A stretch of 64,000 nucleotides of DNA from Desulfuromonadales bacterium (lineage in GTDB: Bacteria; Desulfobacterota; Desulfuromonadia; Desulfuromonadales; BM103). Shown one piece after another: positions 11,409-46,536 of this stretch. The position numbers were made by a program, and so were the translations under genes. Each line of letters starts with the position of its first letter. Position 1 is the stretch's first letter. The DNA is taken from positions 1 to 64,000 of the forward strand of contig JACZKE010000056.1 in assembly GCA_014860225.1 (NCBI GenBank), read 5' to 3'. The notes below the pieces were generated by a model, which searched no databases, was not told the DNA's origin, and saw nothing but the letters and a program-made list of their open reading frames with translations.

Positions 11409-11555
11409 TGCATGCATCTCCTTGTGAAACCAACGTTCGACTGCTCTGCTGAGCTACATTCTGACAAAATCTTTCTTAAATGCAAGGAAAACGTAGTGCA
11501 AAACCTTTGTCTTGACCCCTTTGTCCATGTCGACGACCTGGTGTCGGGGCAGATT

Positions 11556-11585
11556 GTTTTTCGTCAGGGGCTGTGCTAAATTTCC
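11556..11585 (+). promoter_or_regulatory. possible sigma-70 promoter of efpL
   Basis: TTGTTT, 17 bp, TAAATT lies about 40-65 bp upstream of the efpL start in the divergent glgC-efpL intergenic region. Both boxes are imperfect. Confidence 0.3.
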
Positions 11586-11621
11586 CATCCCAGACATTTA
11601 CTTATTCGAGGAGTGACCAAG

Positions 11622-12182
11622 ATGACATCCAATGACCTCAAACGCGGACAGGTGATCCTGCTTGACAACGCACCCTGCCTGGTACTTGACACCAGCAGCC
11701 AGAGTCCTTCGGCGCGTGGTGGCAGCACCCTGATCAAAACAAAATATCGCAACCTGCTCACCGGCCAGGTGCTGGAAAAGACCTTCAAGGCGGGCGACCG
11801 TGTCGATGCCGCTGATTTCGAGAAGCGCAAGGGCCAGTTCCTGTATGCAGACGGCGACAATGGCATGTTCATGGACCTTGAAAGTTACGAGCAGTACGAA
11901 TTGGGAGACGAGATGTACGGTCCGGTCAAAGGTTACCTGATCGATGGTGCCGATGTTGTTCTCGGGGTTTTCGAAGGACAGGTCGTTTCCATTGAGCCAC
12001 CAATGGTAGTGGAGTTGTTGGTCACCGAAACAGCGCCGGCGATCAAGAACGCCACGGCCCAGGCCCAGACCAAGGAAGCGACTCTGGAAACGGGGTTAAA
12101 GCTTCAGGTGCCCGGTTATCTTGAGACCGACGAACGGGTCAAGGTTGATACGCGGGAATGCCGGTTCGTTTCCAGGGCCTAG
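11622..12182 (+). CDS. efpL: EF-P-like protein EfpL (YeiP family)
   Basis: A 186-residue EF-P paralogue with the same three-barrel plan. The tip loop reads QSPSARGGSTLIK, with arginine (Arg32) where EF-P has its modifiable lysine. This matches the E. coli YeiP/EfpL loop pattern SPTARGAATLYK and implies a factor that needs no EpmA modification. The C-terminal segment ETGLKLQVPGYLETDERVKVDTRE is typical. EfpL relieves stalling at a set of motifs overlapping that of EF-P. The ATG at 11622 has GAGGAG eight bases upstream; the GTG at 11613 overlaps that site and is unlikely. The stop codon overlaps the left end of a long hairpin repeat. Confidence 0.9.
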   Translation: MTSNDLKRGQVILLDNAPCLVLDTSSQSPSARGGSTLIKTKYRNLLTGQVLEKTFKAGDRVDAADFEKRKGQFLYADGDNGMFMDLESYEQYELGDEMYGPVKGYLIDGADVVLGVFEGQVVSIEPPMVVELLVTETAPAIKNATAQAQTKEATLETGLKLQVPGYLETDERVKVDTRECRFVSRA

Positions 12183-12343
12183 TACCCAGTAACCTATAAG
12201 ATGTCGCAAGATTGCGCAGGGATTTGGCGGGTCAGCAAGGCGCGTCTTCATCTGCCCAGCCGTAGCTACTCAGCTGAAGGCGCAACGCCGCTGACGCGGC
12301 AAAGAACCAGCAAGATGCGATAGCTTATGGGTTACAGGGTACT
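12181..12343. repeat. 163-bp long-hairpin repeat element (copy 1)
   Basis: Outer arms AGTACCCAGTAACCTATAAG (12181-12200) and CTTATGGGTTACAGGGTACT (12324-12343) pair with two mismatches. Pairing continues inward (TCGCA with TGCGA; TTTGGCGGGTCAGC with GCTGACGCGGCAAA; CTTCATCTG with CAGCTGAAG), so almost the whole element can fold on itself. The apex is AGCCGTAGCTA (12258-12268). The element at 49902-50066 has the same size, fold and apical sequence but different arms. No coding capacity. It is probably a REP/MITE-like mobile or regulatory repeat. Confidence 0.6.
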
Positions 12344-12373
12344 CGTTGTAAGGCGTGAGGTGTTAAAAACATA

Positions 12374-12409
12374 AAAGGACGACTCCCGATCGAGTCGTCC
12401 TTTCCTTTT
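12374..12409 (+). terminator. intrinsic terminator after efpL
   Basis: A perfect 12-bp stem, AAAGGACGACTC with GAGTCGTCCTTT, and a 6-nt loop are followed by a T-rich stretch (TTTCCTTTTC). It closes the efpL transcript beyond the repeat element. Confidence 0.8.
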
Positions 12410-12457
12410 CTGGCGGGCTGCTTTCGCGTTTCGAAGCCAGCGCCGCGCACATCGGTT

Positions 12458-12643
12458 TTTTTGCACTTATGCAAAAAGACTTGAAATTGTCATTGCAGTA
12501 TTGCAAAACCATGTTTTAGGCTGGTTTTAAATCAGCTGTAAATCCACTTCCTGTCCGGCTTTATCTCTTCCTCATTCCTGACATACCGGCAACCTTGATT
12601 TCTTAAGGCACTCTCCGCGCTTGAGGTTTTTCGCGTTTCTGCA
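12458..12643. promoter_or_regulatory. three TGCA-N4-TGCA palindromes upstream of the OFA transporter
   Basis: Site 1 TGCACTTATGCA (12462-12473) sits inside a perfect TTTTTGCA-N4-TGCAAAAA palindrome. Site 2 is TGCAGTATTGCA (12494-12505). Site 3 is CGCGTTTCTGCA (12632-12643), a weaker match. They lie 100-280 bp upstream of the sigma-54 promoter at 12742, the usual range for enhancer-binding proteins. A matching cluster precedes the AceTr gene (20676-20726). Confidence 0.5.
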
Positions 12644-12741
12644 AAAACGCTATTTTATCCCTTCCTTGTTCACTTGCCTTGATTTGTATCCAAGATACCG
12701 AAATTAAACAGGAATAAAGTTTTTTAAGAGCGTCTTGCGAT

Positions 12742-12756
12742 TGGTATGCGAGTTGC
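12742..12756 (+). promoter_or_regulatory. sigma-54 (-24/-12) promoter of the OFA transporter
   Basis: TGGTATGCGAGTTGC has the required GG-N10-GC spacing and fits TGGYRYR-N4-TTGC. Transcription would begin near 12768, giving a leader of about 185 nt before the ATG at 12953. Confidence 0.55.
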
Positions 12757-12952
12757 GATGTCATTTGCCATAGGCAGCTCGGACGGCACAGCAAAGAAAG
12801 AGCTTATGCAGATGCTTGAACACATACCCGGTCATCGCAGAAATAAGCCAGTCATCGGTACCATCAAGGCGTGCTGGCCTTTGACTCACCGGGTTCAACA
12901 ATTGAGACAATACGGTTTGGATAACTCGACAGCGATCACCAGGGAGGCAAAC

Positions 12953-14266
12953 ATGAGCAAGCAGCGCACATCATCAAAACGTGGATGGACGGTCGTACTG
13001 GCCGGTACAGGCATCAACCTCGCATTGGGCATTCTTTATACCTGGAGTATCTTCAAAGGTGCTATTGCCGATTCGATTTCTGCCGGCGGTCCCGGGGCTT
13101 TTGCCTGGGACAAGGCCTCGATCAACGACCCTTATGCCACGGCCTGTCTGACCTTCGCTGTGGCAATGATCCTCGCCGGCAAGGTGCAGGACAAGTTCGG
13201 TCCCCGGATCACTTGCATCATCGGTGGTCTGATGGTCGGCAGCGGTTTCATCTGGATATCGCAGACGACCGATTACTGGTCCTGGATCGTTGGTTTCGGC
13301 GTCCTGGCCGGGATGGGCATCGGTTTCGGCTATTCCGCCGCCACGCCGCCGGCGCTGAAGTGGTTTCCACCGGCCAAGACCGGTCTGATCGCTGGTATCG
13401 TCGTCGCCGGCTTCGGCCTGGCCTCGGTTTACATCGCGCCGTTGGCCCAGTACCTGCTCGGTGCCTATGGCCTGCAGCAGTCGATGCTTTACTTCGGCTT
13501 CGGCTTTGTCGTTGTCACCTGCTTCTTCGGCATGTTTCTGGCCAACCCTCCGGCTGGTTACGTGGCTGATCCTCAAGCTGCCAACGCAGCGGTCAAGGCC
13601 GTCGTCGTCGAAGACAAGACCCCCTCACAGATTCTTAAGACTGCCCAGTTCTATACGCTCTGGGCCTGCTTTTTTATAGGCTCTGGCGCCGGTCTTATGG
13701 TTATCGGCAGTGCCAAAGGGCTGGCCACGGCGAGCATGGGTGAGCTGGCTTTCCTGGTCGTGGCAATCATGGCTATCGGCAACGCCGCCGGCCGCATTGT
13801 CGCCGGAGTGGTCTCCGACAAGATCGGCCGCGTCAACACCCTGGTCATCATGCTGGTTTTCCAGGCTGTGCTGATGTTTCTGGCCATTCCGGTTATCGGC
13901 GGAACCTACAACAATCCGTTGGCAATGCCTCTGTTGGTGACCTTCATGGTCTTTAACTATGGTACCAATCTCTCACTCTTTCCATCCTTTGCCAAGGATC
14001 TGTGGGGTGCCAAGAACTTTGGTATGAACTACGGCATCCTCTTCTCAGCCTGGGGCATCGGAGCTTTCGCTCTGGTGCGCGTATCCGAGATGTTGCGCGT
14101 CAAAACCGGCGGCTTCACCATGTCGTTTGCTGCCGCCGGCGCCCTGCTGGTGGTTGGCGCCATGCTTGCCGGTACCTTGAAGACACGCAGAGCCGAAGTC
14201 CCGGTGCTCGAAGGTGCTTTCGAGACGGAGGAAGACCTGGCTCTGGCAAAAGCAACCAACGATTAA
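12953..14266 (+). CDS. OFA-family MFS transporter (oxalate/formate antiporter type)
   Basis: A 437-residue inner-membrane carrier with 12 predicted helices. It has the family N-terminus GWTVVLAGTGINLALGILYTW, the loop-2/3 MFS signature AGKVQDKFGPR, and its second-half counterpart AGVVSDKIGRVN. The family exchanges or imports small monocarboxylates such as oxalate, formate, pyruvate or related acids; which one is used here cannot be read from the sequence. The ATG at 12953 is preceded by AGGGAGG. Longer in-frame starts reaching back to 12746 would begin at or before the predicted transcription start. A sigma-54 promoter and palindrome cluster lie upstream, and a strong terminator follows. Confidence 0.85.
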   Translation: MSKQRTSSKRGWTVVLAGTGINLALGILYTWSIFKGAIADSISAGGPGAFAWDKASINDPYATACLTFAVAMILAGKVQDKFGPRITCIIGGLMVGSGFIWISQTTDYWSWIVGFGVLAGMGIGFGYSAATPPALKWFPPAKTGLIAGIVVAGFGLASVYIAPLAQYLLGAYGLQQSMLYFGFGFVVVTCFFGMFLANPPAGYVADPQAANAAVKAVVVEDKTPSQILKTAQFYTLWACFFIGSGAGLMVIGSAKGLATASMGELAFLVVAIMAIGNAAGRIVAGVVSDKIGRVNTLVIMLVFQAVLMFLAIPVIGGTYNNPLAMPLLVTFMVFNYGTNLSLFPSFAKDLWGAKNFGMNYGILFSAWGIGAFALVRVSEMLRVKTGGFTMSFAAAGALLVVGAMLAGTLKTRRAEVPVLEGAFETEEDLALAKATND

Positions 14267-14310
14267 TCGTTCTTTACCGTTTGCAAACCCTCCTTCAGGT
14301 TCAAACGGCC

Positions 14311-14345
14311 GCGGCCCCGTCAGTAATGACGGGGCCGCTATCTTT
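14311..14345 (+). terminator. intrinsic terminator after the OFA transporter
   Basis: A perfect GC-rich 12-bp stem, GCGGCCCCGTCA (14311-14322) with TGACGGGGCCGC (14327-14338), and a GTAA loop are followed by TATCTTTG. Confidence 0.8.
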
Positions 14346-14776
14346 GTGTGGAAAGAGCTTTAACTTGGGGAAGACTTGTTTATTTCTGCACACATGATAA
14401 AGCATATTAAGTGTTGACTCGTAATTATCGGTGAATAGCATGCAAATTCTGCTGGCACTGAAAAGTCGCATCTATTATCAAGGATTGAAGCAGATGATCA
14501 GGGATTAAGTAATTCTGAGCGAGCCTGTCTGCTGATATGTCATGTGTCTGCAACTTTCATAGCAATACAAATCTCAATACAAATCTCTTTAATATTTATC
14601 TCTAAGTATCATTGCAACCTCTTTTTCCTCTGCGATAATAACAATTAAAGACGTCTCATCAGCTTCCGGGTCGGAACCCGCACTTCTGCTCTCCAGGTTT
14701 TCCGGATGGGCACTAAACAGAGGAGGCTCCTGGCAGAACTTTCACAGTAACCACCCGAAATCATAAGGAGCATGAC
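14346..14776. other. AT-rich intergenic region upstream of the Gly-rich gene
   Basis: About 430 bp without a gene. There is a 12-bp direct tandem repeat (AATACAAATCTC twice, near 14566-14589), a small CGGGT-CGGA-ACCCG hairpin near 14670, and an imperfect CCAGG/CCTGG pairing in the leader. I looked for a c-di-GMP (GEMM) riboswitch because a secreted protein follows, and did not find its conserved core. Confidence 0.35.
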
Positions 14777-15217
14777 ATGAAGACACCGATGAAAATAATC
14801 AAATTATTGCTGGTTTCCTTGGTCAGTGTGTTGCTGGTTGTCTGGTCAACCCCGATCCATGCATTGACCTCTTCTGCTGAGGATGCGCCGATCTACCTGG
14901 CCAGTGGCGGCGGTGGCGGCAATGGCGGTGGCGGCAATGGCGGTGGCAGCGGTGGCAGTGGTGGCAGTGGTGGCAGTGGTGGAGGCAGCGGCAGTGGTGG
15001 AGATCATACGGGTGGCCAGGGCAGCCCTGGCATGACAGGTGGTTTCGGTAAAGGCAGCATGCAAATGGAGCGAGCGCGTGAAATGGAACAAACGCTTGAT
15101 CAGGCTGGCAAGGTAAACCCGGAAGTCCAGGCAGATCAGGATCGTGATCGGGACCGCGATCGGGACAAAGATCAGGACCGTGATCAAGATAAAGAGAAGG
15201 ACAGAACTCACCAGTAA
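14777..15217 (+). CDS. exported Gly-rich protein with charged Asp/Arg tail
   Basis: A 146-residue protein in three clear parts. Residues 1-30 are a Sec signal (basic start, hydrophobic LLLVSLVSVLLVVW, cleavage near IHA-LT). Residues 45-80 are almost pure glycine, serine and asparagine in GGN and GGS repeats, also repetitive at DNA level as GGCAGTGGT units. Residues about 115-146 are alternating acidic and basic, in DRDRDRDRDKDQ style. No known domain. AAGGAG precedes the ATG at good spacing. Such low-complexity exported proteins can be adhesive or matrix components, but that is only a guess. The partial protein at 1-88 begins the same way. Confidence 0.65.
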   Translation: MKTPMKIIKLLLVSLVSVLLVVWSTPIHALTSSAEDAPIYLASGGGGGNGGGGNGGGSGGSGGSGGSGGGSGSGGDHTGGQGSPGMTGGFGKGSMQMERAREMEQTLDQAGKVNPEVQADQDRDRDRDRDKDQDRDQDKEKDRTHQ

Positions 15218-15242
15218 AAACATCTGGAAATTCTGTTAGCAG

Positions 15243-15276
15243 GCAGGCGACAGTATGCAGATCGCCTGCTTTTTTC
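15243..15276 (+). terminator. intrinsic terminator after the Gly-rich gene
   Basis: Stem CAGGCGA (15244-15250) with TCGCCTG (15262-15268), followed by a run of six T. Confidence 0.75.
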
Positions 15277-15346
15277 TGTTCAGGTGGTCCGATATTGACA
15301 GCGAGCAAGTCATGGCGCAATATGACAACTCTTTTCAGGAGACGCC

Positions 15347-16798
15347 ATGACAGCTGAACGCCGCCGCACAACATCTAAAGTGCCCTCAAAACCCCGCGCC
15401 GAAGAACTGACTCTGACCATCGAGCGCATCGATGACGATGGTATGGGGCTGGCGAATCACGCCGGCAAGCCGGTCGTCGTTTTCGATGCGCTCCCCGGCG
15501 AGAAGGTCGTCGCCCGTGTGGTGCATACCGGACGGCACCGGATCCTCGCCAGCACGCTGCGCGTATTGCAGGCGTCCCGCGACCGGATCGCCAAGACTTC
15601 ATGCCCGCATTATCGCGCCTGTCAGAGTTGTGCCCTGCTGAGCTGGAAGTATACCGCCCAGTTGGAGTGCAAGAGCAAGCGCGTGGCCGACGCCCTGGCC
15701 GCTTACCCGAGCTTGCTTGAAGTGCCGCTTGGTGAGGTCTGGGCCGCTCCGGAGACCCTTGGCTACCGGGCCAGCGCCAAGCTGGTCGTGGCTCGCAAGC
15801 GGGGCAAGGCTCAGGTCGGCATGTACCGGCGCGGCAGCCACGATGTGGTCGATATCGCCGACTGCCCTCTGCATCATCCGCTGATCAATCGGGTCGCCGC
15901 CGTGGTTCGTGAAGAACTCGACCGACGCAATATCTCGGCCTACGATGTCAATCACCGGCGCGGTCTGCTACGCTACCTGCTGATCCGGGTCAGCCCGACC
16001 TACGACAAAGCGATGGTCACTTTCGTCACCAGCGAACGCAACTATAGCGAAGTGACGCACCTGGCCAAGTGGCTGCAGCGAAAAGTCCCCGAAGTCATCT
16101 CCGTCCATCAGAACGTCAACGCCAGCTCCGGCAACGTAATCATCGGCCGCGAAACCCTCAAGGTGCTCGGTACGCCTGACCTGATCGATCAGGTCGGCGA
16201 CGTGAGGCTACGCCTCGGACCGACCTCGTTCCTGCAAGTGCATCATGTCCAGGCTGCCCGTATCTATCGCCTGGTCCGCGACTGGTGTAATCTCAGAGCC
16301 GGTGAATCGGCCCTCGACCTTTACTGTGGCGTCGGCGGCATCAGCCTGCACCTGGCCCCCAAAGCACATCAGGTGCTCGGCATAGAGACCGTCGCCGAAG
16401 CGGTGCGCCATGCTCAGGCCAATGCGAAGATGAATGGCTTCACCAACTGTAAGTTTGTCGCCGGTGATGTCGAAGCCCTGCTCGAGGAGGACCTGCCGCT
16501 GTCAGGGACACTCGGTGCCGTGGTGGTCAATCCTCCGAGATCAGGATGTGCTCCGCAAGTCCTGACGGCGATTGCAGAGATGCAGCCGCGCACGCTGGTC
16601 TATGTCTCGTGTCATCCCGGTAGCCTGGCACACGATCTTGCACTTCTGGTGGATAAGGGGTTCCATGTCGATCAGGTTCAGCCTGTCGATATGTTCCCGC
16701 AGACACCACATATTGAGAACGTTGCCAGGTTGACGTTCACGGGCAGCCATAAGCCGGCCGGATTGAGCGAAGCAAGCAACAAAGCCAAGAAGCCTTGA
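15347..16798 (+). CDS. rlmD: TRAM-domain 23S rRNA (uracil-C5)-methyltransferase, RlmD-like
   Basis: An S-adenosylmethionine-dependent RNA methyltransferase of the RumA/TrmA class. The 483-residue product has an N-terminal TRAM RNA-binding domain (about 20-75), a Cys set CPHYRACQSC and ADCPLHHP that holds a [4Fe-4S] cluster in RlmD, the SAM site ALDLYCGVGGISLHLA, and the catalytic region NPPRSGCAP with the nucleophile Cys in YVSCHPGSLAHDL. AGGAGA precedes the ATG. The C-terminal 25 residues extend past the usual end and look unstructured. The family assignment is firm; the exact target uridine (U1939 versus U747) is inferred from the cluster and TRAM domain. Confidence 0.82.
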   Translation: MTAERRRTTSKVPSKPRAEELTLTIERIDDDGMGLANHAGKPVVVFDALPGEKVVARVVHTGRHRILASTLRVLQASRDRIAKTSCPHYRACQSCALLSWKYTAQLECKSKRVADALAAYPSLLEVPLGEVWAAPETLGYRASAKLVVARKRGKAQVGMYRRGSHDVVDIADCPLHHPLINRVAAVVREELDRRNISAYDVNHRRGLLRYLLIRVSPTYDKAMVTFVTSERNYSEVTHLAKWLQRKVPEVISVHQNVNASSGNVIIGRETLKVLGTPDLIDQVGDVRLRLGPTSFLQVHHVQAARIYRLVRDWCNLRAGESALDLYCGVGGISLHLAPKAHQVLGIETVAEAVRHAQANAKMNGFTNCKFVAGDVEALLEEDLPLSGTLGAVVVNPPRSGCAPQVLTAIAEMQPRTLVYVSCHPGSLAHDLALLVDKGFHVDQVQPVDMFPQTPHIENVARLTFTGSHKPAGLSEASNKAKKP

Positions 16799-16882
16799 AT
16801 CAGGATCCGTTGCTCAGGTAACACTCGGGAAAAGACCTTCAACTCTGATTCTGAACGGACCCATAACCGATACAAAGGCTAT

Positions 16883-16978
16883 GGCCACTAAGTCACAAAG
16901 GCACCAAGGAATCGGAACATTACAGATTAACAGCTGAGGGCTTATTCTTTGTGTCTTGGCGTCTTTGTGGCTAACCTG
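16883..16978. repeat. CCAC-AAG dispersed repeat, inverted pair (copy 1)
   Basis: GCCACTAAGTCACAAAGG begins at 16885 and a roughly complementary GTCTTTGTGGCTAAC ends near 16975, so the unit forms an imperfect hairpin. The repeat has a 9-bp rhythm. It closely resembles the copy at 61077-61196 and a fragment at 42818-42839. Non-coding. Confidence 0.5.
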
Positions 16979-17036
16979 TCGTTTTTTCGGGTTTTCCAAA
17001 ATAGCCCTTTGATTGGTTAGCGAGCCGATTTGGTCG

Positions 17037-18320
17037 TTACGCCTTCGGTTTGCGGTGCCGATAGTTGTCTATCAACAGAATTGCTGCGACACAGAGAAAA
17101 GCTGCCCCGAACAAGGCGATCGCCCCGGTCGGGTTCTGCAGCAAGCTTGGGAAAAAGACCAGCACAATGCCTATGCCCGCCATCATCACGCCTGAAATCA
17201 GTTTCAACCAGCGGCCCTGCTTTTCCGTCAACTGATGTGCTCCCAGGGTCACCGTAAAAACAATCACGATAACCAGCAGCGGCATTACATAGATGACATT
17301 ATATAAGGCCAGGTAGGTATAGTACTGCCAGGTTGTCAACCCATGCAGGGTGAGGATACGGGTGAAGACCATCGGAAACCCGGCTGTACAGAGAAGCTCG
17401 TAGCTGTTTGCGGCAATTGCCAGCAGGATCGTGCCGCCAAGCAGCGAAAAGTAGCTGGGCGATTTAATGAGATTCCTGACGCGATGGTAAAGCCCGGGCT
17501 TGGCTTTTTCCGGTATCGATAAACTCGGGCCCTTGTGAAAGAAGAAGTAATCCTTGATATTAAAAGCCCCGATCAGCAGCGCCACCAGGCCAGCCAGAAG
17601 AGTGACGAAGCGGATGCCGCCGGTTGCCAGGAAGAGGTTGAGCCAAGCCGCCATGAACAGGAAGTAGATCAGGCCGGAGAAAGTGACAAAGACTATGCCG
17701 ACGGTCAACATGCGCATCCGGGAACGTGCATGGATCATCAGCGAGAGTAGAAAGAGCAGGACAAAGAAGGCGCAGGGATTGATGCTGTCAAGTAGGCCGA
17801 GTGTCAGAGTCACCAGCGGCAAAGAAACTTCCCGGGCGTCCCATTTCCCCAAAAATGGGATTGCGACCACGGTGTCTTCGGGAGCGTGTTGCCTGGATCT
17901 TTCGGCGCCATTATTCTGCTGTAGCCGCAACAAGGCATCCGGGCAGCCATTGGCAATGCACTTCCGTAATTGGACTTCGATCTCCTGTAATTTATCATGA
18001 TCGATGCCGATCCAGACCTTGTCGCCCAGGAACAGGGTTGGTGTTGCCAGCGGCAGGTCACCGTAGGTAGATAAAAGCTCAACCAGCTCGGTTAATGCGC
18101 TTCGATCCGACCAGATATCCTTTTCGATCAAGTCAATCTCTGGTAGCTGGCCGGCAAGTTCATGGATCAGAGGTCCGTATTCCTGACATTTTGGACAATT
18201 TTCGGCAGAATAGTAATAAAGTTTCGCGGCATCGGCCGATACCGTGCTAACGATGCCAAGGGAAGCAGCGCAGAGAAGGGAGAGACAGAAGGTGATGACA
18301 AGAAATCGTCGCGTGTTCAT
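17037..18320 (-). CDS. exported thioredoxin-like domain fused to CcdA/DsbD-type membrane domain
   Basis: A 427-residue protein with a signal peptide or anchor (residues 6-30), a thioredoxin/glutaredoxin-like periplasmic domain with redox motif CPKC at 42-45, a linker with two more cysteines (CIANGC, about 128-133), then a six-helix CcdA/DsbD-like module from about 180. The membrane part keeps the NPCAF motif after the first helix and a later Cys near YELLCTAGFP, the pair that passes reducing equivalents in the family. It would carry electrons from cytoplasmic thioredoxin to periplasmic thiols, for example for cytochrome c maturation. Domain order differs from DsbD. The ATG at 18320 starts the signal peptide; an upstream extension to 18425 is not signal-like. 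The ribosome binding site is weak. Confidence 0.7.
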   Translation of the reverse strand: MNTRRFLVITFCLSLLCAASLGIVSTVSADAAKLYYYSAENCPKCQEYGPLIHELAGQLPEIDLIEKDIWSDRSALTELVELLSTYGDLPLATPTLFLGDKVWIGIDHDKLQEIEVQLRKCIANGCPDALLRLQQNNGAERSRQHAPEDTVVAIPFLGKWDAREVSLPLVTLTLGLLDSINPCAFFVLLFLLSLMIHARSRMRMLTVGIVFVTFSGLIYFLFMAAWLNLFLATGGIRFVTLLAGLVALLIGAFNIKDYFFFHKGPSLSIPEKAKPGLYHRVRNLIKSPSYFSLLGGTILLAIAANSYELLCTAGFPMVFTRILTLHGLTTWQYYTYLALYNVIYVMPLLVIVIVFTVTLGAHQLTEKQGRWLKLISGVMMAGIGIVLVFFPSLLQNPTGAIALFGAAFLCVAAILLIDNYRHRKPKA

Positions 18321-18442
18321 AGCCGTCTGATATTGGTAAAATTTTGCAAAAAACTTCTGCTTATATTTTAGCAGAGTCTTGCCATGTTTCTGTTTATTGA
18401 ACACAGAAGCATTTGAACGGTCCATCCGGGGTGCGATAAGTG

Positions 18443-19102
18443 ATGTCTCAGAAAATCAATGTTCACAAAGAAGAAGCCTTGCTGATGCGCAATCTCTGGT
18501 TAATGATTTTCTTTGTCACCCTGATCTGGTCTGGAATCCAGCCCAAAGATTATCCAACCTGGCTGCTCGAAGTTCTGCCGGCCCTGATCGGTTTTGCCGT
18601 AATGGCAGCAACCCGTCGCAAATTCCCTATGACCCGCTTGGCTTATGTTTTGATCCTGTTCCATTGCGTGGTCCTGATGGTAGGGGGGCATTACACCTAC
18701 GCCGAGGTCCCCCTGTTTGACTGGATTCGCGACTGGTTCAACCTCGAGCGCAATAATTATGACAAGCTTGGCCACTTCATGCAGGGCTTCGTACCGGCGA
18801 TCATCACCCGCGAGATTCTGGTGCGCAATGCAATCGTCGCCGGCAGGGGCTGGCTCGTGTTTATCATCGTCTGTGTCTGCCTGGCAATCAGTGCTTTCTA
18901 TGAATTGATCGAGTGGTGGGTGGCTATCTTCTCGGCCGAGGCGGCCGAGGCATTTCTCGGTACCCAGGGATATGTCTGGGACACCCAGTCGGACATGATG
19001 TTCGCTTTGATCGGAGCAGCTTTGGCCTTGCTGTTTTTGTCAGGCTTGCACGACAGGCAAATAAACCGAGGCGTGGGACGCGGGATGCCGGGCGCAGTTT
19101 AA
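18443..19102 (+). CDS. DUF2238 (YjdF-like) integral membrane protein
   Basis: A 219-residue protein with about six transmembrane helices. It carries family landmarks GGHYTYAEVPLFDW, NNYDKLGHFMQGFVPA, AFYELIEWW and WDTQSDMMFALIGA, matching the DUF2238 family that includes E. coli YjdF. No biochemical role is established. It is divergent from the thioredoxin-CcdA gene. The start is uncertain: GTG 18440, ATG 18443 or ATG 18485, none with a strong ribosome binding site. Confidence 0.75.
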   Translation: MSQKINVHKEEALLMRNLWLMIFFVTLIWSGIQPKDYPTWLLEVLPALIGFAVMAATRRKFPMTRLAYVLILFHCVVLMVGGHYTYAEVPLFDWIRDWFNLERNNYDKLGHFMQGFVPAIITREILVRNAIVAGRGWLVFIIVCVCLAISAFYELIEWWVAIFSAEAAEAFLGTQGYVWDTQSDMMFALIGAALALLFLSGLHDRQINRGVGRGMPGAV

Positions 19103-19127
19103 AGCCGGTAAAATCACGAGCACAAAA

Positions 19128-19170
19128 AAAGCCATGTCGACGGTGTTGCCGTCCCATGGCTTTGGCTTTT
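19128..19170. terminator. bidirectional terminator between convergent genes
   Basis: AAAGCCATG (19128-19136) pairs with CATGGCTTT (19155-19163), and GACGG pairs with CCGTC inside. A- and T-rich flanks suit termination of both the DUF2238 gene and the convergent small membrane protein gene. Confidence 0.7.
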
Positions 19171-19202
19171 TATGGAGGTTCCCGCGTTCCCCGTTCCGGG
19201 CT

Positions 19203-19589
19203 TTAAGGAGCTATCGGCATTTCATAGTCGGTCATGACAACGTCCATTTTCAGTAGAAAGCGACTGAATTCATTGAAGGTCATGCTGGCCGGTTTGACCA
19301 GGAAAAGGGCGACGATGCTGACGACTGCTGCTGCAGCCATCCAGTTGAGAACGAGATTGCGCAACTCCCAGTTCGGCTCTTCGACCTCTTCGTTCTCGGG
19401 ATGTTCCTTGGCCGGAAGCTTTGCGGCCATCTGCCGCATGATTTTTCCTGAGCAGAGAAAGATCACGGCAGAGATTGCAAACTGGGGAAGAATCTCCAGC
19501 GAAGCCAGTCCGGTCCCCAGGATGCCGGCATAAAATGCCAAAACGCCTAGTCCGAGCATGGTCATCTGACGGCTGAGCTTTGCATTCAT
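19203..19589 (-). CDS. small membrane protein of unknown function
   Basis: A 128-residue protein with three likely transmembrane helices (about 10-30, 35-50 and 80-100) and an acidic cytoplasmic loop (KEHPENEEVEEPN). I do not recognise a family. GGGAGA lies before the ATG at 19589 with long spacing. It reads in the same direction as the AceTr gene upstream, 72 bp away, so co-transcription is possible. Confidence 0.55.
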   Translation of the reverse strand: MNAKLSRQMTMLGLGVLAFYAGILGTGLASLEILPQFAISAVIFLCSGKIMRQMAAKLPAKEHPENEEVEEPNWELRNLVLNWMAAAAVVSIVALFLVKPASMTFNEFSRFLLKMDVVMTDYEMPIAP

Positions 19590-19661
19590 GCTTTGAGTTT
19601 CTCTCCCTTGACAGCGTAACTAGTCATCACGCTATAAAATTATCGACAACGGCAACTCCTG

Positions 19662-20444
19662 TCAAGAACGGATCTTGCCTGGCCTGACCATCTCGGCCTG
19701 AAACAGGTGTAGAGCATCGCTGCCGGCATGGCGCAAACCCAGGTAGAGGCCCGGCAGGCTGCTGGCCAGTCCGAGCAGGGCAGATGCGTGAAGAAATGCA
19801 GTGTTTCCTGTCGCCTGAGCCAGGGCAAGCATAAGGAGAAAGGCTGACATCAGGGCAAAGACTGCACGGCAGGTGCGGGTTAGCTGCTCAAGCCCCTGAC
19901 AGATAACCATGCTGAACATCCCCCACATGGCGAGATAACCCATCATCGGAATCGGTCCGGGAATCGAACCGTATCCGGCCCTTGGCAGAATATCGAGAGC
20001 CAGGATCGAGAGCCAGAAGAGGCCGAAACCGGTAAAAGCGATGGCCCGTAGAAGATTGCTTTTCAGGGAATTCAGACCGGCGGAAATCTGACCGACGGCG
20101 CCCAGCATGATAATGATCGCCAGAAGATGAAGATTCAGCGACAGAACTGGCAGTTTGTCGGCGGCGTAGCTTGCCGCAGTGATGCCGTAACAGAAGAGCC
20201 CAAACACCGGCAGGTTGTCGAGATTGGCAGCGGGTCTGTCCGGAGCTGCATAACCGTTTCCTGCAGGGGCAGGTTCCTGATGTTCTGCCCGATCGGATAG
20301 CTCGCGATATTTCCGACAATCCTGATACTGACAGGAGCAGAACTTGATAATCATGCTGGCGTCATGTGAAGAAATGTAACCGCAACCGACATCACAGACA
20401 TCTTCATTGTCATCGTAGTAGGGACAGATCACTGTGTCTTGCAT
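19662..20444 (-). CDS. AceTr (GPR1/FUN34/YaaH) transporter with Cys-rich N-terminus
   Basis: A 260-residue protein. From about residue 75 it matches the acetate/succinate transporter family (SatP/YaaH): NLPVFGLFCYGITA in place of the NPAPLGL motif, then GAVGQISAGL, IAFTGFGLFWLSILAL, GYLAMWGMFSM and ALLGLASSLPGLYLGL, for six helices. The NPAP motif is altered (NLPV), so transport properties may differ. The first 45 residues hold six cysteines (7, 17, 21, 36, 38, 43) in a CX9CX3C...CXCX4C layout that looks like a metal site; E. coli SatP lacks it. AGGAGG precedes the ATG. A sigma-54 promoter and TGCA palindromes lie upstream. It probably moves acetate or another small carboxylate. Confidence 0.75.
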   Translation of the reverse strand: MQDTVICPYYDDNEDVCDVGCGYISSHDASMIIKFCSCQYQDCRKYRELSDRAEHQEPAPAGNGYAAPDRPAANLDNLPVFGLFCYGITAASYAADKLPVLSLNLHLLAIIIMLGAVGQISAGLNSLKSNLLRAIAFTGFGLFWLSILALDILPRAGYGSIPGPIPMMGYLAMWGMFSMVICQGLEQLTRTCRAVFALMSAFLLMLALAQATGNTAFLHASALLGLASSLPGLYLGLRHAGSDALHLFQAEMVRPGKIRS

Positions 20445-20488
20445 ATGCGCCTCCTGTGCCGGTTAACTCCGGCTTGTGGACTCGGTTG

Positions 20489-20538
20489 AAAAAATGGGCC
20501 CGGCCTTCAGGCAAAAGTGAAACTAAGCCGGGCCCCAT
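20489..20538 (-). terminator. strong intrinsic terminator in the leader of the AceTr gene
   Basis: GCCGGGCCCCAT (20527-20538) pairs with ATGGGCCCGGC (20494-20504), followed on the minus strand by six T (20494-20489). It lies between the predicted sigma-54 promoter and the AceTr start. It may act as an attenuator, or insulate the gene from upstream transcription. Confidence 0.7.
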
Positions 20539-20560
20539 TGGAGTCACGATATACTTATTG

Positions 20561-20576
20561 AGCAAGGCATATACCA
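20561..20576 (-). promoter_or_regulatory. sigma-54 (-24/-12) promoter of the AceTr transporter
   Basis: Read on the minus strand, TGGTATATGCCTTGCT fits TGGYRYR-N4-TTGCW exactly, with GG-N10-GC spacing. Transcription would start near 20549, about 105 nt before the AceTr ATG. Confidence 0.6.
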
Positions 20577-20675
20577 AAAGATGGTTTGTTCGTATGGAAT
20601 GGTTTTATTGTTTAATATCAGGAGATTACGTCGTATATTGTGGGTGGACCTGACAGCTGGGAAGGACATGGAATT

Positions 20676-20726
20676 CGCAGATTTGCAAAAGCTGTGAATC
20701 AGCTTTTGCATTTGTGCAAACATGCG
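20676..20726. promoter_or_regulatory. cluster of TGCA-N4-TGCA palindromes upstream of the AceTr promoter
   Basis: Three sites: CGCAGATTTGCA (20676-20687), TGCATTTGTGCA (20707-20718) and the overlapping TGCAAACATGCG (20715-20726), 100-150 bp upstream of the -24 element. The first two are also joined by a longer inverted repeat (TGCAAAAGCTG with CAGCTTTTGCA). The A/T flanks match the sites upstream of the OFA transporter. Confidence 0.5.
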
Positions 20727-20817
20727 AATCAGGGAATCCGAACAGTGGTGTGTTTTCTGTGCAACTGAACAAGCGTGCGGGAAATGGCATAAGCTTTGGC
20801 GTGGTCGTTAAACTTGA

Positions 20818-22248
20818 TCAGATCGGCTCCTCCGGCTGCCAGCCACCGCCTAACGCCTTGACCAGCAAGACGCTTGCGGTCAGCCTGCGGCCAATAAGGC
20901 CCAGCGATACGCGTTCATTGGTAAGCGCGATTGCCTGGGCGACCAGCACATTGAGATAGGTTATGGCACCGGCCTGGTATTGGGTGTTGGTGATAGTTAC
21001 AACCTGTTGGGCTGCATGTACAGCCTGATCCTGGATCTTTGACACTTCCTCCAAAATCCGCAGGGCCGCAAGGTTATCCTCAACTTCCTGAAAACCGGTC
21101 AGTACAACCCCCCGGTAGGCGGCCACTGTCTCGTCATAGGCGGCCAGGGCCTGCTCCGACTGGGCCTTGCGCAAGCCACCATCGAACAGGGGCGCCGACA
21201 TTGTCGGCCCGACAGACCAGAAACGACTCGGCCAGTCAAGCCAGGAGGAAAGTCTCGATGACTCATATCCGGCGGCAGCGGACAGCTGGATTGTTGGAAA
21301 ATAAGCGGCCCGGGCGATGCCGATCCGGGCATTGGCCGCTGCGACCTGACGCTCGGCAGAGGCGATGTCGGGCCGTCGTTCAAGAAGCTCGGAGGGAAGA
21401 CCTGCCGGGATGGGCGGAATTGCGGTTGCCAATGTCGTCGCTGGCAGGGAAAAGGCTTCGGGGGGTTTGCCGATCAGCAGGGCGATGGCATGTTCCAGTT
21501 GCGCGCGCTGTACGCCAAGATCGAGGGCTTGCGCCTCGGTGCTTCTGAGCTGGGTCTCGGCCTGAAGAGCATCTGTTTTTGCCACCACCCCGGCGGTATA
21601 GCGATAATTAGTCAGTTCCAGTGATTTACGATAAACATCGGTCGTAGTATCAAGAAGTTGCTGCTGGGCGTCCAGTACCCGGAGCTGAAAATAATTGACG
21701 GCCAGTTCCGCCTGAATACTCAGAGTCACCGCAGCCAGGTCTGCGGCACTGGCCTGGGCGGCTGCCTGGCTTGATTCGACGCTACGCCGGACTCTGCCCC
21801 AGAGGTCAAGTTCCCAGGTTAAATCCAGCGGCAGAAGAAAATCCGAAACCGGAGAGCCGGCACCGGTTTCGGTCCCCAGGTTTCCAGATTGCCGAAACCG
21901 GGTGGCCGAAACACCGGCCGACAGCGTGGGGAAGTAGCCGGCTCTGGCAGCCCGCACCAGCGCGCGTGCCTGACGGAACCGGGCCTCGGCGGAAGCTACA
22001 TTGAGGTTTGATATCGCAACCTGTTCCACCAGTGAGTCCAGAACCGGATCCCGGTAGATTTCCCACCAGCGCTCGGTCAGCATGCCGTCCCGAGGCTGTG
22101 CCACCTTCCAGTCTTCCAGCTGCTTGTAGGCCGTTGGCATGTTTGCGACCGCAGTTGGCTTCACATAATCCGGACCAACCGTGCAGGCAGTCAACAACAT
22201 GGCGCAAAGCAGCAAGATGATCCGTATGGTTAAATCTGTCGATTTCAC
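20818..22248 (-). CDS. outer-membrane efflux lipoprotein (NodT/OprM family), second pump
   Basis: A 476-residue TolC-like channel and the last gene of the second RND operon. The lipobox is MLLTACTVGPDYVKP, typical of the family, followed by paired coiled-coil repeats (AARAGYFPTLSAGVSATRF and IARAAYFPTIQLSAAAGYE). GGAGG sits four bases before a GTG at 22248, which I take as the start; an in-frame extension to 22332 would put 28 residues before the signal peptide. It lies 101 bp after the permease stop. Confidence 0.87.
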   Translation of the reverse strand: MKSTDLTIRIILLLCAMLLTACTVGPDYVKPTAVANMPTAYKQLEDWKVAQPRDGMLTERWWEIYRDPVLDSLVEQVAISNLNVASAEARFRQARALVRAARAGYFPTLSAGVSATRFRQSGNLGTETGAGSPVSDFLLPLDLTWELDLWGRVRRSVESSQAAAQASAADLAAVTLSIQAELAVNYFQLRVLDAQQQLLDTTTDVYRKSLELTNYRYTAGVVAKTDALQAETQLRSTEAQALDLGVQRAQLEHAIALLIGKPPEAFSLPATTLATAIPPIPAGLPSELLERRPDIASAERQVAAANARIGIARAAYFPTIQLSAAAGYESSRLSSWLDWPSRFWSVGPTMSAPLFDGGLRKAQSEQALAAYDETVAAYRGVVLTGFQEVEDNLAALRILEEVSKIQDQAVHAAQQVVTITNTQYQAGAITYLNVLVAQAIALTNERVSLGLIGRRLTASVLLVKALGGGWQPEEPI

Positions 22249-22349
22249 ATATCCTCCAGTCCTGGGAGTCTGTCTGCCCGTATTGTCCGACAGGCTCCTG
22301 GCAGGATCTGATTGCAACTTATCGTTTATCACTCATTGGCCAGCGATTT

Positions 22350-25300
22350 TTATTCGCTGGCAACAACGTCCTCGAGGTTTTGATCTTTGCTGTGATCCTT
22401 GGCTACCAGCATATAGATGGACGGAATGATGAAGAGTGTAAACAATGAACCGATCGCTATGCCGCCTACCAGTACCAGGCCGATGGAGTTACGGGCAGCA
22501 GCTCCGGCCCCGGTGACCAGGATCAGGGGGAAGTGACCGGCGATGGTGGCCCCGGTTGTCATCAGTATGGGTCGCAAGCGAGTCATGGCGGCTTCCTGAA
22601 CCGCTTGCCGCTTGGTGTGTCCCTTCTCCTGGAGTTTATTTGCGAATTCCACGATAAGAATGCCGTTTTTGGAGACCAGACCCACCAGGGTGACGAGCCC
22701 GACCTGGGAGTAGATGTTCATAGTCGTCGTCCAGTTATGCGTCCAGAACGGGACGCTGGGGTCGGGCATTTTTAGAAACGTAAAAATCATGGCTCCGAAC
22801 ATAGCCAGGGGTACCGAGCCGGCCAGGATCACGAACGGATCACGGAAACTGTTGAATTGTGCAGCAAGCACCAGGAAAATCAGGGTAATGGCCAGGGCAA
22901 AGGTCCGAATGAAGGTATTGCCTTCGCTGCGTAGTTGGCGCGACTCACCGGTGTAGTCCAGAATATACCCCTGAGGCAGAATCTTGGCGGCTTCGCCCTC
23001 CAGGAAGTTTAGAGCTTCGTCCAGGGGGCGAACCGCCACACCACTGATTTTGACCGCGTTAAGCTGCTGGAATCGGTTCAGAGATCGCGGTACGGTGCTG
23101 TTTTTGATCGTGGCAAAGGTGCTGAGTGGCACCAACCGACCATTCGGGCCGGTGACGTAGATGTTGCTGAGTTGCTCCGGATTCAGACGATCGATGCGCT
23201 GAATCTGCGGGATGACTTTGTAGCTGCGACCCTCGATGTTGAAGCGATTGACGAAGTTACCTCCGACCATGGTCGCCATATCGGCTCCCACCTGTTTCAG
23301 GTTGAGACCCAGGTCGGCCACCTTGTCCCGATCAATAACAAACTCGGACTCGGGTTGATCGATTTTTACGTCGATAATAGGCGGAAAAGCGAACATGCCG
23401 CTCTGCATGGCCGCGAACTGGATCTGATTCGCAAAATCCAGGATCTGTTCGGGCTCGGCGGTGGAGGCCAGAATGAACTCGACCGGGAACTGACCGCCGC
23501 CGGGCAGCGCCGGCGGGGTGACCGGGAACATTCTTATTCCCGGGATATCGTGCAGTTTTTGCTGGACTTCGGGCATAATTTCAAAAATTGTGCGGTCACG
23601 TTCCTGCCAGGGCTTGACCACCATCCCCCCAAAACCAGAGGATGGCATGGTTATCTGAAACACGAATTGGGTTTCCGGAACGCTCAAAAACGCCTCGTTG
23701 ACTGCTGCAGCATAATGACTGGTCTGGTCGATGGTAGAATTGGCGGACGCGTCCAGAATGCCGAAAATGACTCCCTGGTCCTCGGTGGGTGCCAACTCCT
23801 TGGCCGACATGGTGAACATGGGGATAGTCAGCATGCTCAATATGATCCATACCATGTAAACTGCCGGTCGAGCGTTCAGGCTGGCGTTGAGCAACTTTCC
23901 ATAAAAGTCACGCAATCGGTGGAAATCCCGTTCGATTTTCCCGGAAAAGCCACGTTCATTCATACCTGGTTTGAGCAACCGTGAGGCCATCATAGGTGAC
24001 AGGGTCACGGCCACAATGCCGGAAATCATTACAGCCCCGGCCAGGGTAAAGGCAAATTCCCGAAACAGAGATCCGGTCAGCCCGCCCTGCAACCCGATCG
24101 GCGTGTAGACTGCAGCCAGGGTCACGGTCATGGAGATCAGCGGTCCCAGGAGTTCACGCGCGCCCAATATGGCCGCCTGCATGGGCGTTTGTCCCTCACT
24201 CATGTGGCGTTCGACGTTCTCGACGACCACGATGGCATCGTCGACCACCAGGCCTACGGAGAGTACTATGGCAAGCAGTGTCAGCAGGTTGATAGTGAAT
24301 CCGAAGGCCTGCATGAGGAAAACGGCGCCGATGAGAGACAAAGGAATCGCCACCACCGGAATGAGGGCTGACCGCAGCGATCCCAGAAACAGAAAGATGA
24401 TTACGACCACAATCAGCAGGGTCTCGCTCAGGGTCTTGATTACCTCGTTTATGGCATTGTCGATATAGGCGGTGCCGTCGTAAGCAATACGGCCTTCCAA
24501 TCCTTGGGGCAACTGTTTGGAAATCGCCACCATCTCTGCACGTACGAGCTTGATTACATCCAGAGAATTGGCGTTGGGCAGTGGCCAGATCCCCATGAAG
24601 ACAGCTGTTTGGCCAGAGAAACGCACCTCGGCATCATAATTTTCAGCACCCAGCACAACATCGCCGACATCCTCCAGGCGTACGACGCCACCATTCTCTT
24701 CGCGAATGACCAGGCGTTTGAACTCTGCCACGGAGCGCAGGTCGGTATTGGCTGTCAGATTGACCTGAATCAACGCTCCCTTGGTGCTTCCCACGGCCGC
24801 CAGGACATTATTAGCCGTCAAGGCTTCGGCTACCTGCGTCGGGCTGACATTGAATGCGGCCATGCGGTCTGGTTTCAGCCAGATACGCATGGCAAAGGTG
24901 CGAGCGCCCAGGATATCGGCCCGTTGGACACCTTCCAGAGCAGAAAGCCGGGGTTGTACGACACGTACCAGGTAGTCGGTGATCTGGTTCTGTTTGAGAA
25001 AATCAGAGGTAAAGCTCAGATATGCAGAAGCGAACTGGCTGTCGGCCGATTCCACGTTGATGACCGGGACCTCGGCTTCCGGGGGAAGGTCTCCCCGTAC
25101 CTGGTCCACTTTGGAGCTGATTTCCGATAGTGCCTTGATGGGATCATAGTTGAGTTTCAGGCGGGCGCTGATGGTGGCAATCCCGTGGGAGCTTTGCGAC
25201 TCAATGTAATCAATGCCGTCAGCGGCCGCAATGGCCCGTTCCAGTGGCACGGTGATAAAACCACGCACCAGTTCGGCACTCGCGCCCACGTAGACAGTCG

Positions 25301-25442
25301 TCACGGTGACCACGGCATTGTCGCTGCGCGGGAACTGGCGTACATTCAGGGAGCGGATGGCCTGTAATCCCGCGATAATGATCAATAAGCTGATGACCAG
25401 CGCCAGTACAGGTCGACGGATAAAAATATCGGTGAATTTCAT
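22350..25442 (-). CDS. RND-family efflux permease, second pump
   Basis: A 1030-residue AcrB-class permease with the N-terminus MKFTDIFIRRPVLALVISLL, the TM4 aspartate pair in VGLVVDDAIVVVENVERHM and twelve helices in two halves. The sequence resembles the MexK/MuxC-type branch rather than the permease at 3443, so the two pumps are not a recent duplication. It starts 4 bp after the adaptor stop. Substrates cannot be inferred. Confidence 0.9.
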   Translation of the reverse strand: MKFTDIFIRRPVLALVISLLIIIAGLQAIRSLNVRQFPRSDNAVVTVTTVYVGASAELVRGFITVPLERAIAAADGIDYIESQSSHGIATISARLKLNYDPIKALSEISSKVDQVRGDLPPEAEVPVINVESADSQFASAYLSFTSDFLKQNQITDYLVRVVQPRLSALEGVQRADILGARTFAMRIWLKPDRMAAFNVSPTQVAEALTANNVLAAVGSTKGALIQVNLTANTDLRSVAEFKRLVIREENGGVVRLEDVGDVVLGAENYDAEVRFSGQTAVFMGIWPLPNANSLDVIKLVRAEMVAISKQLPQGLEGRIAYDGTAYIDNAINEVIKTLSETLLIVVVIIFLFLGSLRSALIPVVAIPLSLIGAVFLMQAFGFTINLLTLLAIVLSVGLVVDDAIVVVENVERHMSEGQTPMQAAILGARELLGPLISMTVTLAAVYTPIGLQGGLTGSLFREFAFTLAGAVMISGIVAVTLSPMMASRLLKPGMNERGFSGKIERDFHRLRDFYGKLLNASLNARPAVYMVWIILSMLTIPMFTMSAKELAPTEDQGVIFGILDASANSTIDQTSHYAAAVNEAFLSVPETQFVFQITMPSSGFGGMVVKPWQERDRTIFEIMPEVQQKLHDIPGIRMFPVTPPALPGGGQFPVEFILASTAEPEQILDFANQIQFAAMQSGMFAFPPIIDVKIDQPESEFVIDRDKVADLGLNLKQVGADMATMVGGNFVNRFNIEGRSYKVIPQIQRIDRLNPEQLSNIYVTGPNGRLVPLSTFATIKNSTVPRSLNRFQQLNAVKISGVAVRPLDEALNFLEGEAAKILPQGYILDYTGESRQLRSEGNTFIRTFALAITLIFLVLAAQFNSFRDPFVILAGSVPLAMFGAMIFTFLKMPDPSVPFWTHNWTTTMNIYSQVGLVTLVGLVSKNGILIVEFANKLQEKGHTKRQAVQEAAMTRLRPILMTTGATIAGHFPLILVTGAGAAARNSIGLVLVGGIAIGSLFTLFIIPSIYMLVAKDHSKDQNLEDVVASE

Positions 25443-25445
25443 GGA

Positions 25446-26576: not shown

Positions 26577-26764
26577 CAGTGTCTCATCTCTTTCCAAGGA
26601 TATGATGCAGCTCCAGGCGATTACGTTCTGCTGTCATCAAGTTACCCGCGCGGTGGCAAAAAGTTCTGTGTGTGCAACCCGGACGTCCATTTGCCCATGC
26701 ATAAAACGGTGAGTCTCAGACGAATCCTGGCGACTGCCGTTCAGCTTAAAACCCATACCGTCAT

Positions 26765-30096: not shown

Positions 30097-30173
30097 AAGT
30101 GGAGATTAGTTGTTGTTCAGAAACGTAGCGATTATGCGGTTTGCGGGATGAAAAAGCAAGGATGCTCGGCTTG

Positions 30174-46262: not shown

Positions 46263-46492
46263 TAAGCGGTTTGCGGTCGGCGCAATCATCAAAACCGCAT
46301 TTCAGGTAACCCTGAAGCATGACCGGAAAGTCTGCTTCGCAATGCTCGCTGTAAAGCAGAGATGTCTCGATTTAGCCGGCAATAAAAGCTGTCTGAAGAG
46401 TGCATTGCATAAAGGTGGGCACGCTTCTGAAGACAGACAAACAGAGCGCCGGTATTCATTTGTACAAAAGTGATTCCTTCTTGCATAAGCAA

Positions 46493-46504
46493 TGCATTTA
46501 CGCA
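46493..46504. promoter_or_regulatory. TGCA-N4-YGCA palindrome before the activator gene
   Basis: TGCATTTACGCA, 32 bp before the activator ATG. With flanks it reads ATGCATTTACGCATAA, differing by one base from the site at 48339 on the other side of the gene. This suggests autoregulation by the activator. I found no convincing sigma-54 promoter in the 46263-46492 gap, which otherwise holds only an AAACCGC-type inverted repeat near 46266-46298. Confidence 0.45.
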
Positions 46505-46536
46505 TAACATGTGTCAATGCACCGGGGAGGTATGTA

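Follow-up and report, generated by a model that had tools for sequence, protein, structure and literature searches.

How does a Desulfuromonadales bacterium come to carry the same palindrome, TTTTGCA-N4-TGCAAAA, before two separate transporter genes, and which protein reads it? We followed this question in a stretch of 64,000 nucleotides (contig JACZKE010000056.1 of assembly GCA_014860225.1, positions 1 to 64,000), which we refer to as the window. Here, arrays of the palindrome precede sigma-54 type promoters of a lactate-type transporter gene and of an AceTr transporter gene, and the same window encodes an NtrC-type response regulator together with a double-Cache sensor kinase. Comparison of these sequences with those of relatives makes it very probable that the parts belong together, as a two-component, sigma-54-dependent regulon for the import of small monocarboxylates.

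Two transporter genes behind one palindrome

Scanning the whole window for TTTTGCA-N4-TGCAAAA with up to two mismatches yielded five sites (starting at 12459, 12491, 12629, 20673 and 20704). All five belong to two -24/-12 promoters and lie 113–283 bp upstream of the -24 element. The chance expectation for such sites, taken from 20 mononucleotide shuffles of the 64 kb, is a mean of 0.05 and a maximum of 1. The original prediction, made from the letters of the window, had placed clusters of palindromes before the sigma-54 promoters of two separate genes, and the scan and the shuffles bear it out. Both promoters are present by sequence match where they had been proposed, at 12742–12757 on the plus strand for the lactate-type transporter (TGGTATGCGAGTTGCG) and at 20561–20576 on the minus strand for AceTr (TGGTATATGCCTTGCT), and both have GG-N10-GC at -24/-12 with a TTGGYA-type element.

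The lactate-type transporter is preceded by two distal enhancer sites, the perfect consensus TTTTGCACTTATGCAAAA (12459–12476) and, 32 bp from it, CATTGCAGTATTGCAAAA (12491–12508). A proximal site, TTTCGCGTTTCTGCAAAA (12629–12646), has two mismatches and lies at a conserved position, 113 bp away from the -24 element. At AceTr, the proximal site ATTCGCAGATTTGCAAAA (20673–20690), likewise with two mismatches, is 114 bp away from the -24 element, and a second site, TTTTGCATTTGTGCAAAC (20704–20721), is 145 bp away; the sites are given without a strand. Six palindromes had originally been listed. Exact TGCA-N4-TGCA cores were found for those at 12462, 12494 and 20707. One half is degenerate in each of those at 12632 (TTTCGCGTTTCTGCAAAA) and 20676 (ATTCGCAGATTTGCAAAA), which nevertheless occupy the conserved proximal position seen in relatives. 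The sixth, at 20715 (TTGTGCAAACATGCGAAT, 20712–20729), must be rated doubtful, because it has three mismatches, overlaps the 20704 site and lacks a counterpart at the same offset in relatives.

The first array stands before a gene for an SfMCT/OFA-type MFS transporter (12953–14266, plus strand), for which we use the short name OFA. Its product scores 393.4 bits against the L-lactate MFS transporter model NF049980 (cut-off 320), stays under the cut-off of the general OFA model TIGR00890 (202 bits versus 374.85) and has 6g9x as its best solved relative. Family models assign the second gene (19662–20444, minus strand) to AceTr (GPR1/FUN34/YaaH; YaaH/SatP), with a Cys-rich module at its N-terminus. 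The product of this gene passes the cut-off of NF038013 (AceTr_1) with 76.4 bits versus 50 and resembles 5ys3 and 5zug. The two genes most likely start at 12953 and 20444, respectively. In agreement with the earlier assignment, NF049980 and NF038013 indicate that both genes encode putative small-carboxylate transporters.

The palindrome is rare elsewhere in the genome (3.94 Mb in 68 contigs). Its 16-mer form, TTTGCA-N4-TGCAAA, occurs three times versus zero for the reversed pattern, with two copies in the window and one within an open reading frame on contig C42. The looser form TTGCA-N4-TGCAA has 11 copies versus 3 for the reversed control, and in the whole-genome scan none of its eight copies outside the window has a match to the promoter pattern TGGYAY-N5-YTGC within 450 bp. 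Six other TGGTAYR-type promoters of the same genome (L257–L262) lack sites with up to two mismatches across the 3 kb examined for each; three-mismatch matches to the palindrome are present at L260–L262.

A further type of palindrome, ATGCA-N4-YGCAT, occurs on the hydroxyproline side of the window at 46493, 48339 and 57834. Its flanks differ, as had been noted before, and it is a site type that is related to TTTTGCA-N4-TGCAAAA but separate from it. The three copies are situated around a gene for a PrdR-like activator (46492–48282) and a trans-4-hydroxy-L-proline dehydratase gene, and the copy at 46493 overlaps the called start of the PrdR-like activator.

Site geometry in relatives

The upstream regions of OFA and AceTr homologs from 40 genomes gave 60 rows, or 58 after removal of two duplicates (L069 and L070, the same loci as L034 and L037). 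A strict promoter match was found in 49 of the 58 regions. Nine loci with no strict promoter match or no upstream sequence were left out of the site scoring (L024, L025, L033, L041, L053, L062, L065, L068 and L071). At 46 of the 49 scored promoters a site lies 98–120 bp upstream of the -24 element, mostly at 113–117. One of the other three has just 101 bp of sequence before its promoter, and the remaining two have one more distal site each. Altogether, 123 sites lie within 330 bp of the scored promoters versus 0.78 in mononucleotide shuffles, a strong enrichment before -24/-12 promoters of relatives, as the original prediction implied. The 16-mer is present in 32 of the 40 genomes. Across 156 genomes of this class of bacteria from sediments, each at least 90% complete, it has 327 copies versus 8 for the reversed control.

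In family alignments, the palindromes and the promoter form conserved islands amid divergent sequence, and a conserved GTTTTA follows right after the second OFA site. These alignments bear on another explanation, according to which the palindromes would be terminator or hairpin structures of neighbouring genes and not protein-binding sites. Such a reading could draw on an inverted repeat (TTTGCAAAAGCTG...CAGCTTTTGCATT) between the two AceTr sites, which could pass for a terminator stem behind the neighbouring efflux operon. However, the stem is lost in the family alignment whereas the palindromes are kept, and the OFA sites constitute an array whose distances from the promoter recur. We reject the hairpin reading on the ground that the stem is not kept, and we consider its chance of being correct the slightest of all alternatives discussed here.

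A kinase/regulator pair associated with the sites

The proposed activator is an NtrC-type response regulator (26765–28132, minus strand) that consists of REC, a sigma-54 AAA+ domain with GAFTGA and a Fis-type helix-turn-helix. The matches to PF00072, PF00158, PF25601 and PF02954 are all over their cut-offs, and the translation contains both the GAFTGA loop and the Walker A sequence GESGTGKE. A double-Cache HAMP-HisKA-HATPase sensor kinase is encoded at 28132–30096 (minus strand), with its stop overlapping the regulator start. We propose this kinase as the cognate sensor of C2/C3 carboxylates.

The arrangement of genes in relatives links this pair to the sites. In 17 of 30 AceTr loci, AceTr is preceded on its own strand, at a distance of up to 1.5 kb, by an ortholog of the regulator (at least 50% identity), and in all 17 the sites are found between the two genes. 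No locus was dropped from this count; the other 13 comprise four with less than 1 kb of upstream sequence, two OFA genes (L069 and L070), the own locus and six without a regulator there. In 15 of 49 kinase loci of named records, among them those of Geomonas silvestris (L183) and G. limicola (L184), the exact 16-mer lies within 400 bp of the regulator 3' end. The order kinase, regulator, sites and OFA is observed in genome G074.

Moreover, the kinase and the motif occur together. In the 156 class genomes the kinase was found in 125 and the 16-mer in 124; 116 have both, 9 the kinase alone, 8 the motif alone and 23 neither (Fisher p=6.6e-14, uncorrected for relatedness; 11 kinase-negative genomes were taken by difference). 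Within the set of 40 genomes, 33 have the kinase (E up to 1e-100). An OFA ortholog (at least 55% identity) is present in 31 of these 33, three times as fragments, versus none of the seven kinase-negative genomes. In G006, a genome of the same genus that is 99% complete, the kinase, OFA, AceTr and the motif are all missing together. The suggestion that one activator, encoded with its kinase at 26765–30096, controls both transporters is supported by synteny, by co-occurrence and by the carboxylate-binding signature of the sensor. Comparative genomics makes the pair a well supported candidate for this role.

One could also imagine two independent regulators, one per transporter, with sites that became alike by convergence. 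The spacing of the sites is indeed unlike, with a distal pair and a proximal site at OFA (offsets to the -24 element of -283/-251/-113) and a closer pair at AceTr (-145/-114). Against this, the consensus, the proximal offset and the TGGTAY promoter type are all common to both genes. Furthermore, OFA and AceTr stand in tandem behind one site near the pair in G029, where no strict promoter was matched, and in G074 a single kinase/regulator pair has next to it both OFA and AceTr-type genes, which have the same arrays of sites. Separate control of the two genes is therefore very unlikely, and one shared activator is the reading we retain.

In outgroup genomes, enhancer-type sites were seen just upstream of the kinase gene (L302 at 8420, L306 at 8983 and L311 at 9086). 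This position suggests that the kinase gene may be autoregulated there.

Sensor domain and predicted ligand

Via its second Cache module, the sensor region of the kinase aligns with 2qhk/4exo, 5g4y and 4k08. The entry 5g4y we take to be PscD, and its sequence fits the residue numbers in the PscD paper. As described in the parts of that paper covered here, PscD binds C2/C3 acids, its residues Tyr90, His103, Tyr143 and Lys156 hydrogen-bond the carboxylate, and structures contain propionate (PscD), acetate (4K08) and pyruvate (4EXO) (PMC5062169). Equivalents of these four residues are invariant in both Cache modules of all 34 aligned orthologs. The alignment holds the kinase of the window, 29 relatives and four named-record loci, excludes kinases without the distal module, and has module 1 matched to module 2 by reading of motifs and not by structure search. 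The Trp145 equivalent is retained in 34 (module 2) and 33 (module 1) of the 34 kinases.

In possessing the four carboxylate-binding residues of PscD, both modules are like the Cache domains of chemoreceptors (PscD, McpP, Adeh_3718 and V. parahaemolyticus 4EXO), as far as the covered parts of that source describe them. The protein differs from these receptors in being a histidine kinase with two tandem modules; the aligned kinases have Tyr or Phe in place of Trp92, and the ligand is a predicted one. Because the Tyr/His/Tyr/Lys pocket residues are kept in both modules, the data support a C2/C3 carboxylate as the probable signal, with the precise ligand deduced by analogy.

A separate form of the kinase was seen in 13 genomes of family f21 (G043, G046, G053, G056, G064 and eight others). 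Their kinase matches cover only residues ~230–653, the membrane-distal module being replaced or lost.

Proposed mechanism and comparison with known systems

The sites, the promoters, their recurrent geometry, the synteny and co-occurrence with the pair and the conserved ligand-pocket residues are all seen in the sequence. From these we infer the phosphotransfer, binding, looping and RpoN dependence of the following scheme, as well as its exact ligand and transported substrates. A C2/C3 carboxylate, for example acetate, lactate, propionate or pyruvate, would be sensed by the double-Cache kinase (28132–30096) outside the cytoplasm, whereupon the kinase would phosphorylate its partner, the NtrC-type regulator (26765–28132). 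Regulator dimers would then bind TTTTGCA-N4-TGCAAAA both at the proximal site, which precedes the -24 element by ~114 bp, and at additional sites located ~30 to 170 bp farther upstream. Through DNA looping, the AAA+ ring could open sigma-54 polymerase at both promoters of the TGGTAY type, before the genes of the L-lactate-type MFS transporter and of AceTr.

This would be a classical NtrC-type circuit, with parts of known kinds. Like NtrC, AtoC and ZraR, the regulator combines a receiver, an AAA+ domain with GAFTGA and a Fis-type helix-turn-helix, with AtoC as its best model (454 bits). In contrast to NtrC and AtoC themselves, it reaches none of the curated cut-offs of the 25 models shown (AtoC 714, ntrC 558.6).

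The closest functional parallel is LurS-LurR of Desulfovibrio (LurR being DVU3023), a two-component system that, according to the covered parts of its report, uses sigma-54 to activate the operon for lactate oxidation and the lactate permease DVU2451 (PMC6456213). Both systems feature a two-component NtrC-type activator, a sigma-54 promoter, several upstream sites and a lactate transport gene as target (PMC6456213). However, LurR sites read GTCCGCTTTTTCAGAC and similar in that source (PMC6456213), and the proposed targets in the window are MFS SfMCT-type and AceTr-type transporters. The 16-bp LurR-type site RTCYRC-N6-RGAC (GTCCGC...CAGAC type) has no match on either strand of the window. The pair would therefore work like LurSR, on the published description as covered, and is not LurSR by this site test. 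We reject the reading as a LurR ortholog, as the LurR site so described differs in sequence and does not occur in the window.

A second parallel is the RpoN regulon of Geobacter sulfurreducens, a related bacterium in which over-expression of RpoN raised GSU2490, a gene for an oxalate-formate antiporter, according to the covered parts of that study (PMC2725144). The likeness is one of annotation, and in contrast to the window those parts of the report name neither a kinase/regulator pair nor a palindrome for GSU2490 (PMC2725144).

Several observations weigh against the proposed circuit. For GSU2490, primer extension led to an RpoD promoter, and its RpoN element is predicted according to the text, with a table marking disagreement with PromScan (PMC2725144, parts covered). 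Within our own data, the helical phasing of the sites is indistinct (resultants of 0.47, 0.38 and 0.21 at periods of 10, 10.5 and 11), and the AceTr match to Pfam PF01184 is weak (29.6 bits versus a cut-off of 25). Moreover, 13 of 125 kinase matches span only residues from ~230 on, and therefore the distal sensor module is not general. Nine kinase-positive class genomes are without the exact 16-mer, and in 11 of the 49 kinase loci of named records it lies elsewhere in the locus.

Two further counts of this kind would also fit a different reader: 23 of these 49 loci have no exact 16-mer in the sequence covered (some of them are short contigs), and 8 of 31 kinase-less class genomes keep at least one exact site. 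In that case another sigma-54 activator in the cell, for instance a paralog, would read the palindromes, with the kinase/regulator pair as a mere neighbour. The PrdR-like protein (46492–48282), a second activator in the window with TGCA-type sites nearby, could be cited in favour of this view. As the reader of TTTTGCA-N4-TGCAAAA, however, we reject it on account of the different flanks of its sites. Synteny and co-occurrence track the 26765–30096 pair, in G038, a kinase-negative genome with the 16-mer, the regulator lies at a contig edge, and at two loci picked for motif hits (L113 and L121) no more than 60 bp separate the end of the regulator ortholog from a site. We regard a different activator as unlikely and favour the pair at 26765–30096 as the reader of the sites.

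A search of the open-access literature found no description of this motif, kinase/regulator pair, circuit or Cys-rich module. A paper of 2008, reportedly on Geobacter genes when acetate is limiting, could overlap. Geomonas genomes carry both the kinase/regulator pair and the sites, and with a kinase, activator, site and target set proposed, carboxylate-responsive uptake is directly testable in cultured Geomonas.

Cys-rich module and AceTr leader

The Cys-rich module of AceTr (20289–20429, minus strand) spans ~48 residues and has no Pfam or NCBIfam family match. Across 17 sequences its invariants are C3, P4, C13-D-V-G, Y19-I, D24, C32, C39 and L45. In stop-to-stop frames with predicted starts, the module belongs to the AceTr frame in the family of the window and in some other genomes, and to the OFA frame in further genomes. 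A profile gave 22 hits in 20 of 26 genomes, each within an AceTr or OFA frame or fragment by coordinates. In outgroup loci the module forms a short separate frame behind the sites, as seen directly in L302 (99 codons). It was further seen at L030, L034, L037 and L069. Structure prediction of AceTr did not resolve the fold of the module (block means of 35–50 for residues 1–50). Common to two unrelated transporter families, it is the most novel element of the circuit, and its occurrence on both, behind a single enhancer motif, calls for an explanation that can be put to the test.

Between the sigma-54 promoter and the start of AceTr lies a conserved 5' leader of the mRNA (20488–20554, minus strand), in which CGTGACTCC is followed by a terminator-like hairpin and a U-run. 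The hairpin has 10 consensus pairs, four with double changes, so that the covariation is modest. The RNA model R1 places the leader before AceTr in 19 genomes of the family of the window, 17 of them in the training set and two (G007 and G013) outside it. Its other hits are weak (E 0.03–0.06): G015, with the same hairpin on the opposite strand, G038, and G039 twice. Similar leaders with ACTCC and a hairpin occur at G026, G031, G032 and G033; none was found at G022, G037 and G039. It is our guess that the hairpin attenuates the AceTr transcript. An Rfam scan of 11500–30500 returned one match, mir-153, under its gathering score, which we take as chance.

Tentatively, one may extend these findings to the Desulfuromonadia as a whole, a generalisation that we consider possible and less than likely. 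Small-carboxylate import would then be one circuit across the class, consisting of a dual-pocket carboxylate kinase and an activator at TTTTGCA-N4-TGCAAAA. The Cys-rich module (CP...CDVGCGYIS-x-HD...C...C) would be a common control domain that responds to redox state or metal, attached to either of two unrelated transporter folds or made as a small protein by itself, and the sigma-54-driven AceTr leader with its terminator-like hairpin might attenuate the transcript.

Further targets and neighbouring genes

Two genes have clear sites in the own genome; in relatives the set extends to an alpha/beta hydrolase and to paralogs of AceTr. The alpha/beta-hydrolase-like gene stands behind single or paired sites at L102–L106, L108, L110, L116 and L119. 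Enhancer sites together with a sigma-54 promoter were recorded for L102 (5976–6998), L110 (4222–5365) and L116 (4072–5227), and the strict promoter had no match at L108. The L102 and L110 proteins, the two run against Pfam and NCBIfam, reached no specific NCBIfam cut-off among the models shown. The hydrolase is a likely third member of the regulon, judging from its upstream regions, and we place it there only in relatives, because no site precedes the nearest homolog of the own genome (43% identity, on contig C64). Other families contain AceTr-type paralogs that likewise have sites and promoters, and the copy at L115 passes AceTr_1.

Within the window, the genes between 14.3 and 19.6 kb gave no sign of membership in the regulon. 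An open reading frame of 462 aa at 17037–18425 (minus strand) matches neither Pfam nor NCBIfam at E 0.001. An efflux-type operon (20818–26597, minus strand) separates the regulator from AceTr in the own genome. It contains an OEP gene (20818–22332) by Pfam, followed by 22350–25442 and 25446–26597, judged by position and length alone to be RND and membrane-fusion genes.

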